Positions 61,861 through 63,900 of a stretch of DNA of 64,000 nt are shown one piece after another. The stretch covers positions 1 to 64,000 of the forward strand of contig NZ_JARKOZ010000213.1 in assembly GCF_029978005.1 (NCBI RefSeq). The letters run 5' to 3'. How positions within the stretch are numbered: position 1 is the first letter of the stretch; every line of letters begins with the position of its first letter. The notes under the pieces are model-generated. The model had not been told where the DNA came from, ran no database searches, and was given only the letters and a program-made list of their open reading frames with translations. The position numbers and the translations under genes are program-made. The stretch is from Solidesulfovibrio sp. (lineage in GTDB: Bacteria; Desulfobacterota; Desulfovibrionia; Desulfovibrionales; Desulfovibrionaceae).

Positions 61861-62193
61861 TCAGTGGGAGCCGCAAGCGCCGCCGCAGTCGCCGCCGGCC
61901 TGGGAAAAATCGAGGCTGGAGGCGATGGCGATGCCCTGGCCGTCGCAGTCCACGGTCAGCGGCGCGGCCTGGTCCAAAAGCCGCCTGTTGACCAGGATGC
62001 GCCAGCCGTCGCAGGAAAAGGCGACGTCGTCGGGCTGCGGCTCGGCCACGGACAGTTCCAGGCGCGGGCCGGCCTCGCTTAAAAAAGACAGGAACACGCG
62101 CAGGCTCGGCCGGGCCGCGCCGGCGAAATGCGCCGCCAGGGCGGCGGCGGCCGTGGGCGTCAGGCGCAGCAGTTCGTCTTGGCGAAGGTCCAT
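61861..62193 (-). CDS. HesB/IscA-like protein, variant with Glu at the redox position
   Basis: The 110-residue protein matches the HesB-like fold of its two neighbours (LRLTPTAAAALAAHF, then VFLSFLSEAGPRLELSVAEP, DGWRILVNRRLLDQA). The end is CGGACGSH. At the site where the neighbours have Cys-Cys or Sec-Ala before G-P it has Glu-Ala (EAGP, residue 40), so the first redox ligand is lost while the C-terminal Cys pair remains. An iron-sulfur carrier or redox role is thus doubtful. It follows the terminator of the two-gene unit upstream and may have its own promoter. Confidence 0.75.
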   Translation of the reverse strand: MDLRQDELLRLTPTAAAALAAHFAGAARPSLRVFLSFLSEAGPRLELSVAEPQPDDVAFSCDGWRILVNRRLLDQAAPLTVDCDGQGIAIASSLDFSQAGGDCGGACGSH

Positions 62194-62287: not shown

Positions 62288-62620
62288 TCAGGAACAGGAA
62301 CCGCCGCCGCAGGAGCCACCGCCGCAGGAACCACCGCCGCAGGAGCCGCCGCCGAGTTGCAGGTTCGAAGACACGGAAAAGCCGTAGTCGGTCATGTCCA
62401 CCGTAATGGGCTTGGCCAGGGCCATCAGTTCCTTTTCCACGACGAAGGTGTAGCCGCTTACGTCGAAAACATCATCGTTCTCGCGGGCTTCGTCCAGGGC
62501 CAGGGTCAGGGAAGGGCCGCAGCAGCCGCCCTTGTTGAGGTACACCCGGATGGGCGCTTTTTCTTTGTCGGCGAAATAATTGTCGAGTTCGGCACGGGCC
62601 GTGTCGGTCATGGAAACCAT
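62288..62620 (-). CDS. HesB/IscA-like protein with Cys-Cys and a Gly-Ser-Cys repeat tail
   Basis: The 110-residue protein is HesB-like: TARAELDNYFADKEKAPIRV, then YLNKGGCCGPSLTLALDE with Cys33-Cys34, VSGYTFVVEKELMALAK and DYGFSVSSNLQLG. The C-terminus is four tandem GGGSC units followed by a Ser, an odd Cys-rich tail. These Cys may coordinate iron or an iron-sulfur cluster. Its paralog 119 bp upstream on the same strand has Sec at position 33. GGAGG precedes ATG 62620. A terminator follows. Confidence 0.88.
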   Translation of the reverse strand: MVSMTDTARAELDNYFADKEKAPIRVYLNKGGCCGPSLTLALDEARENDDVFDVSGYTFVVEKELMALAKPITVDMTDYGFSVSSNLQLGGGSCGGGSCGGGSCGGGSCS

Positions 62621-62653
62621 CGTGATCCTCCAGGCAAGGGTTGGCAAAGGGGT

Positions 62654-62718
62654 AATCACCGAAGATTTGCTTGTCAAATAAGTCGGCCCGATGATCCCAT
62701 GGCAAATCTTCGGTGATT
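62654..62718. repeat. 17-bp perfect inverted repeat between the Sec and Cys HesB-like genes
   Basis: AATCACCGAAGATTTGC at 62654-62670 pairs with GCAAATCTTCGGTGATT at 62702-62718 over 17 bp, with a 31-bp spacer. It is a perfect stem in the 118-bp gap between the two genes. It could be an RNA processing or attenuation structure, or a recombination scar of the gene duplication. No T-run follows, so it is not a simple terminator. Confidence 0.7.
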
Positions 62719-62738
62719 CCCTATGCGGATGCCTGGGA

Positions 62739-63059
62739 TCAGCCGGTGGAACAGGAACCGCCGGAGCAGGAGGACCCGCAACCGCCGCCGCCCAGTTCCA
62801 GGCTCGAAGTGACCGAGAAGCCCATGTAGGTCATGTCGACCGTCATGGGAGAGGCCTTTTCAAGCAGTTCTTTTTCCACGACAAAGGTGTAACCGGAAAC
62901 ATCGAGGACCTCGTCCGTGTCGCGCGGCTCATCCAGAGCCAGCGCCAGCCTGGGGCCAGCTCAGCCGCCGGACGAGAGATAGATCCGGATGGGGCTTTTT
63001 TCTTTTTCGGCGAAATACCCGTCGAGCTGGGTTTTCGCGCTCGGCGTCAGTTCAACCAT
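62739..63059 (-). CDS. HesB-like selenoprotein (Sec at codon 33, TGA)
   Basis: The 106-residue frame has an in-frame TGA at 62961-62963, codon 33. Reading it as selenocysteine gives MVELTPSAKTQLDGYFAEKE, then RIYLSSGG-U-AGPRLALALDE, then VSGYTFVVEKELLEKASPMT and a Cys-rich end (GGGGCGSSCSGGSCSTG) before stop TGA 62739. In the adjacent paralog the same position is Cys33 (GGCCGP). AGGAGG precedes the ATG and the frame is otherwise intact. Selenocysteine-containing HesB-like proteins are known in bacteria that carry SelA/SelB/SelC. A hairpin follows the TGA. An ordinary stop would leave only 32 residues. Confidence 0.8.
62933..62953 (-). promoter_or_regulatory. Candidate bacterial SECIS hairpin for the HesB-like selenoprotein
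   Basis: Seven nucleotides after the UGA the mRNA can fold CCAG-GCU-[GGCGCU]-GGC-U-CUGG. That is a 4-bp lower stem, a bulged U (62937), a 3-bp upper stem and a 6-nt loop that begins with GG. Bulged U plus loop G are features of SelB-binding hairpins. The loop is 14 nt from the UGA, slightly closer than in the E. coli fdhF element, so the exact fold needs testing. Confidence 0.5.
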
Positions 63060-63198
63060 GGAATCCTCCTGGGACAAACTCGTTCGATGCAACTAAGCAT
63101 GACCGATAGGAAAGTCAAATGACACGTCGCCAGCCGCCCCGTCGTTGCAGGCGCGATGCGTTTACGGTATTCGCGGGAAAAGCCCCGAGGAAGTCGCC

Positions 63199-63735: not shown

Positions 63736-63900
63736 GGGGAAAGAGGGAAGAGGCCTCCGGCGGCCGGGAGGGGATGATCCCCTCCCGGGCCCTCCCCGAT
63801 GGGGGAGAGGCACGGGAGGGTGCCTGCGTTTCCTTTTCGTGCCTGATTGTGGGGGGCGGTCGATGGACGTATGGGGGAGGCTCCAGCAAGGAGGTTTCCC

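Follow-up and report, generated by a model that had tools for sequence, protein, structure and literature searches.

The locus described here raises the question of how a HesB-like reading frame that is complete apart from a single internal TGA should be understood. It lies near one end of the window, by which we mean the whole stretch of 64,000 nucleotides of Solidesulfovibrio sp. DNA that was analysed (contig NZ_JARKOZ010000213.1, positions 1 to 64,000). The initial annotation had proposed a full-length HesB-like frame broken at codon 33 alone, and a selenoprotein as its product, and it named no strand. The plus strand was considered as the coding strand and rejected; translation of the minus strand, with TGA taken as selenocysteine (Sec), confirmed the frame, which runs from 63059 to 62739. 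The protein begins with MVELTPSAK, passes through YLSSGG-U-AGPRL and closes with CSTG, after which a second TGA acts as the terminator; codon 33 is the sole internal TGA. A gene caller without Sec awareness would report a 32-residue stub in place of this gene. From the comparisons set out below, we place at about 0.94 the probability that the gene encodes a HesB/IscA-type selenoprotein whose TGA at codon 33 is read as Sec. The features of the locus are collected in Table 1.

Table 1. Coordinates of the features at the HesB-like locus, as positions of the window
Feature	Position	Strand	Details	Basis
Putative HesB/IscA-like selenoprotein gene	62739..63059	minus	106 aa, Sec at residue 33	translation, NF038090 match
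In-frame TGA, putative Sec codon (codon 33)	62961..62963	minus		homolog column read in order loci
RBS-like AGGAGG	63065..63070	minus	five bases 5' of ATG	direct reading
SECIS-like hairpin GCGC-U-GGCUC-UGGAU-GAGCC-GCGC	62922..62945	minus	bulged U 62941; loop 62935-62931	
Cys paralog, GG-C-CGP	62288..62620	minus	110 aa; directly downstream of Sec gene	translation
Third divergent paralog	61861..62193	minus	Glu at Sec/Cys column; Cys-containing tail retained	
Inverted repeat	62651..62721	minus	arms 62651-62670 and 62702-62721; between Sec and Cys genes	

The family to which the protein belongs is already known. Over its residues 1-96 the Sec protein matches the full length of the NCBIfam model NF038090 (IscA_HesB_Se) with 122.8 bits (cut-off 85), and it differs from that family in nothing material; to judge by its name, the model was made with the Sec form in mind. 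A second curated model, TIGR01911, gives 31.1 bits, below its cut-off of 66.35, such that the curated models place the protein under NF038090. Pfam PF01521 is matched with 27.5 against 26.3 bits. HesB-like selenoproteins were tabulated in 2006 for Desulfovibrio vulgaris, D. desulfuricans and Geobacter sulfurreducens (table in PMC1794560), and a table in PMC13188914 lists TIGR01911 as a HesB-like selenoprotein with the motif UxGP, to which the residues U-A-G-P of the present protein conform. The proteins of these two tables thus resemble ours in the motif, in their occurrence among related sulphate reducers and in their HesB/IscA type, and together with NF038090 the 2006 table bears out the statement of the initial annotation that such selenoproteins exist in Sec-decoding bacteria. 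A Sec-containing HesB relative is also found in the archaeon Methanococcus maripaludis, where, according to PMC11097638, it was identified via mutagenesis and 75Se labelling; it differs from the present protein by its archaeal decoding. The same paper terms the function of the protein unclear and mentions, as an unpublished observation, that a disruption mutant still fixed nitrogen. Within titles and the openings of abstracts (subscription papers lying mostly outside this coverage), literature on HesB selenoproteins with tandem Cys homologs, on Sec in Solidesulfovibrio and on IscA Sec proteins in Desulfovibrio contains no description of this locus. What sets the locus apart from the NF038090 model are features of the locus rather than of the protein, namely a same-strand pair of Sec and Cys genes and a third paralog with neither residue.

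The distribution of the TGA among homologs is the first line of evidence that the codon is functional. Our survey sample comprised 40 genomes of the order, the genome under study included, and family matches (E <= 0.001) were obtained in 39 of these, 98 in total. The residue at the Sec column was read for 75 of the 98 matches, from 42 order loci, with L078 (the same gene as L055) and 23 matches, chiefly sub-cut-off ones outside the fetched loci, omitted from the counts. The column holds TGA in 36 of the 75, Cys in 26 and Glu, Asp or Ala in 13, all 13 being the divergent third paralog. The initial annotation had pointed to an alignment of homologs at this column as a check, and the outcome bears it out: this paralog apart, the in-frame TGA is either conserved or replaced by Cys, as is the case for bacterial selenoproteins. 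A TGA copy is present in 36 of the 40 genomes, one per genome, and in 14 of 14 members of the genus, which argues for conservation beyond chance, although the copies of two genomes (G030 and G038) score slightly below the NF038090 cut-off. The four other genomes form a mixed group. G014 has weak TGA-containing matches only, and G016 (89% complete) has no family match; in G019 and G021, which belong to the same family, no selA was found and each encodes one stop-free HesB-like copy, with Cys at the column in the case of G021 (L051). The joint absence of selA and of a TGA copy in the latter two genomes looks like a genuine loss of the Sec trait. Thirteen additional named loci have a Sec/Cys-type column, with a TGA copy in 10 and Cys alone in three (L121, L129 and L132); L121 comes from an assembly that also contains L118.

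The codons that follow the TGA are likewise conserved. Over 56 codons past the TGA, 13 same-genus comparisons yielded dN values of 0.016-0.135 and dS values of 0.219-0.868, and the region is under purifying selection. The initial annotation had named decay of the gene, together with an unconserved column in homologs, as a ground for giving up the selenoprotein reading; with dN well below dS in all 13 comparisons, none is seen.

A further line of evidence comes from the hairpin downstream of the TGA, whose loop begins 25 nt past the codon. The initial annotation had described a hairpin with a bulged U and a G-starting loop; the bulged U is present, whereas standard pairing gives UGGAU as the loop, in which the G comes second. 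Every one of the 36 TGA copies in the order has the hairpin core, GGCUC/GAGCC or a variant: 35 form all five pairs and one forms four, and the 10 TGA copies of the additional named loci form all five as well. The loop is UGGAU in 34 of the 36 and UGGAC in two. Among 34 distinct TGA sequences, 98.5% of cells are paired, and one pair covaries (G-C in 19, U-A in 13, C-G in one, unpaired in one), both sides having changed in 14 of the 34, a score equalled in none of 500 shuffles; apart from this pair, the covariation signal consists of one-sided changes at two further pairs, and three pairs are invariant. In contrast, the Cys copies (n=26) form five of the five core pairs in one case, four in eight and one to three in 17, and when the same structure is imposed on 24 distinct Cys sequences, 48.6% of cells are paired, which is not above the value for slid versions. 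The synonymous codons within the hairpin are frozen in the TGA copies and vary in the Cys copies: the Ala codon is GCT in 36/36 TGA versus 4/24 Cys copies (Fisher p 2.5e-12) and the Glu codon GAG in 36/36 versus 10/24, such p-values being only indicative since the rows are related. Thus, a SECIS-like hairpin after the TGA, conserved and covarying among the TGA copies, is upheld.

The outer parts of the hairpin are more variable. The lower stem that contains the bulged U is found in 14 of 14 same-genus TGA copies (four pairs in 13, three in one), and the 14 same-genus Cys copies form no more than two of the four; outside the genus, the TGA copies (n=22) have at most three lower-stem pairs and none has four. 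Little can be concluded from the mere presence of the bulged U, since it falls on the middle position of a Leu codon and every listed copy has a T there. The single-sequence minimum-energy fold prefers an alternative (-22.2 versus -17.0 kcal/mol for the bulged-U form) that includes a nearer hairpin, GCUGGCC-CCA-GGCUGGC; the TGA copies do not share this nearer hairpin, and the minimum-energy folds of individual sequences differ from each other near the TGA. Bacterial SECIS elements are hairpins directly downstream of the Sec codon whose apical loop contains a G, and the hairpin of the TGA copies has such an apical-loop G. A conserved G in the SECIS loop is also named in a figure legend of PMC1794560. 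Elsewhere in the same genome, two FdhA genes have a GGCTC-TGGCA-GAG hairpin after their TGA, with the loop 22 nt away; a GGCTC-TGG-GAG hairpin was looked for after the TGA of selD and not seen.

One Cys copy, at L033 in genome G023, has all five core pairs of the SECIS-like hairpin and is likely a remnant of a Sec-to-Cys conversion, by analogy with the conversion described for a Desulfitobacterium HesB-like protein in a figure legend of PMC1794560.

The decoding machinery is where the evidence is divided. If the gene is decoded as proposed, the UGA at codon 33 would be read as Sec by tRNA-Sec with the anticodon UCA, and SelB would deliver this tRNA, recruited by the UGGAU-loop hairpin. The initial annotation had called for a search of the genome for selA, selB, selC and selD and had regarded absence of selB or selC as refuting. 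Two of the four were found: tRNA-Sec (selC; 82.7 bits, anticodon TCA) and selD (339 bits), which has one in-frame TGA of its own. Two FdhA genes above cut-off contain one TGA each, as do two partial sub-cut-off FdhA matches. In the same assembly, a family search gave zero matches to selA, the selB wing-domain model gave none, and the full selB model gave sub-cut-off matches only. The best of the latter, on contig C68, was taken as EF-Tu from its length of 412 aa and an EF-G-sized neighbour, and a partial match on contig C221 likewise reads as EF-Tu. Taken literally, the missing selB corresponds to part of what had been regarded as refuting; selC is present, however, and an assembly gap is the likelier reason. 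The tRNA-Sec gene lies on contig C184 (L001), apart from selA and selB, neither of which is evident within the surrounding 3 kb.

Several observations point to such a gap. In the closed, single-contig relative G004, genes assigned by family stand in the order folC, selA, aminopeptidase, selB (one relative being the source of this order), and in the genome under study both neighbours are missing along with selA and selB: the best folC match has 28 bits against a cut-off of 162.65, and the aminopeptidase was not found by family search. folC is normally indispensable, and it was found above cut-off in 11 of 14 control genomes. A single missing stretch of this draft of 224 contigs would therefore account for all four genes. 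Moreover, of the 13 other members of the genus, 12 have selA and only G002 (69% complete) shows none, which again makes a gap in the draft likelier; across the order it was found in 34 of 40 genomes. The absence of selA, selB, folC and the aminopeptidase rests on family searches in which every candidate was scored. Two DNA searches were not used for this purpose: one with the relative's selA region, which was dominated by a dispersed repeat and in which 40 of 1500 candidates were scored, and one with a shorter query from that region (40 of 1055 scored). A G+C-rich element of about 60 bp with the core GGGAGGGGATGATCCCCTCCC lies at 63743-63805 in the window and occurs at dozens of genomic sites, two copies being located in the stretch of relative G001 that was used as query.

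The adjoining, intact Cys copy could render the TGA gene dispensable, and with neither selA nor selB found one might suppose a pseudogene, formerly a Cys gene, that acquired a nonsense TGA and is now decaying. Such a gene would hardly be expected to occur in TGA form in 36 out of 40 genomes, to be under purifying selection past the TGA and to have a hairpin that the TGA copies preserve and the Cys copies do not retain as a structure, and we consider decay very improbable. A recent loss of selA and selB, in which case translation of an intact-looking gene would stop at codon 33 and yield a 32-residue peptide, fits the assembly as it stands, and three other genomes (G002, G034 and G038) likewise have a TGA copy without a selA being found. 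These three are drafts of 140-450 contigs, however, and in the genome under study the loss would have to be reconciled with the retention of tRNA-Sec, selD and two TGA-containing FdhA genes, as well as with the missing folC and aminopeptidase, which indicate one absent stretch of the assembly. Furthermore, where loss appears real, in G019 and G021, no TGA copy remains and the HesB-like copy is stop-free (G019) or has Cys (G021). Recent loss is consequently improbable in our estimation, if slightly less so than decay.

The open frame past the TGA is compatible with readthrough of any sort, including near-cognate readthrough or the insertion of a different amino acid, for example Trp. This is the least credible of the alternatives: the 39 non-TGA homologs have Cys (26) or Glu, Asp or Ala (13) at the column and never Trp, TGA also terminates the very same gene, tRNA-Sec is present, and a hairpin accompanies the TGA. 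Against the Sec reading stand the missing selA and selB, a selD gene without the hairpin motif, the preference of the single sequence for another fold, the confinement of the lower stem to the genus and the 9 of 26 Cys copies with four or five core pairs. In its favour are the homolog column, the covarying hairpin, the lack of decay, tRNA-Sec, selD and the TGA-containing FdhA genes, which support the original proposal that the gene encodes a selenoprotein; Sec decoding at codon 33 appears strongly supported by these genomic comparisons.

A less expected feature of the locus is the same-strand pairing of Sec and Cys genes. The adjacent paralog, in which the initial annotation had recognized Cys at the equivalent of codon 33, is confirmed (GG-C-CGP in the frame 62620 to 62288) and matches NF038090 with 119.4 bits against the cut-off of 85. 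In 20 of the 42 order loci, a Sec and a Cys copy share a strand and their columns lie no more than 1 kb apart, the Cys copy being downstream of the Sec copy in 18 and upstream in two. The third paralog scores 50.4 bits, below the cut-off, and an equivalently placed copy, with Glu, Asp or Ala at the column, is found in 13 same-genus loci; a fourth family match in the genome, on another contig, is weak (28.4 bits). On a tree built from 80 sequences, the Sec/Cys labels require 13 changes, at least seven of which are forced by well-supported branches, although with few columns for 80 rows the number and direction of conversions cannot be read from it. Sec and Cys copies are intermingled in this tree rather than split into two clean clades, and owing to these label changes the Cys twins seem not to derive from one old duplication; the pairing has seemingly arisen repeatedly.

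Between the Sec and Cys genes lies an inverted repeat with 20-nt arms that are 95% complementary (fold z-score -5.66), its downstream arm in gene direction standing directly after a TTGACA-like element, extending into GTGATTACC. Of the 14 genus members, seven have the repeat, and the other seven have a terminator-like hairpin with a T run and a separate TTGACA element. Among the seven members with the repeat, which were chosen for showing it, the long stem is kept with one clear compensatory pair. The repeat is a possible terminator or regulatory site. It is conceivable, albeit unlikely, that the Sec/Cys pair constitutes a selenium-sensing switch that arose on several occasions through tandem duplication together with Sec-to-Cys conversion; the intergenic hairpin, which overlaps the promoter-like element, would then set the expression of the Cys copy under selenium shortage. 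Irrespective of its control, the Cys paralog, with Cys replacing Sec, may serve under such shortage.

With regard to function, the predicted structure (mean pLDDT 81.5) has the IscA fold. Its best PDB match by Foldseek is an IscA with a [2Fe-2S] cluster (E 7.3e-07, TM-score 0.61), further top matches being other IscA entries and SufA, and in a PDB sequence search Sec33 aligns with the Cys of GGCSG in HI1723 and AQ_1857. Sec33 would accordingly occupy the site of the first conserved Cys in A-type Fe-S proteins. The fold and the place of this residue are shared with IscA, SufA and ErpA, from which the protein differs in that Sec replaces the first Cys and a Cys-rich tail replaces CxC. A-type Fe-S carriers have three Cys ligands arranged as C...CxC; here, U33 is accompanied by C94, C98 and C103 (CxxxCxxxxC, no CxC), and due to this different tail a cluster-binding role is uncertain. 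The tail Cys would provide additional ligands; in the structure model the tail has a pLDDT under 50, at which its distance to Sec33 is not readable. Based upon the fold, the alignment of Sec33 and the tail Cys, we infer an Fe-S/metal-binding or redox role in which Sec33 would act as ligand or nucleophile. Most likely, the protein either coordinates a metal or an Fe-S cluster or undergoes a redox cycle in which a selenolate forms a selenylsulphide with one of the tail Cys and is then regenerated. For the genome, the analysis adds a well-supported selenoprotein gene, and for this order of sulphate reducers it documents a HesB-like TGA gene in 36 of the 40 genomes sampled. The presence of Sec and Cys twins at one locus would offer a natural experiment on what selenium contributes to an Fe-S-type protein.
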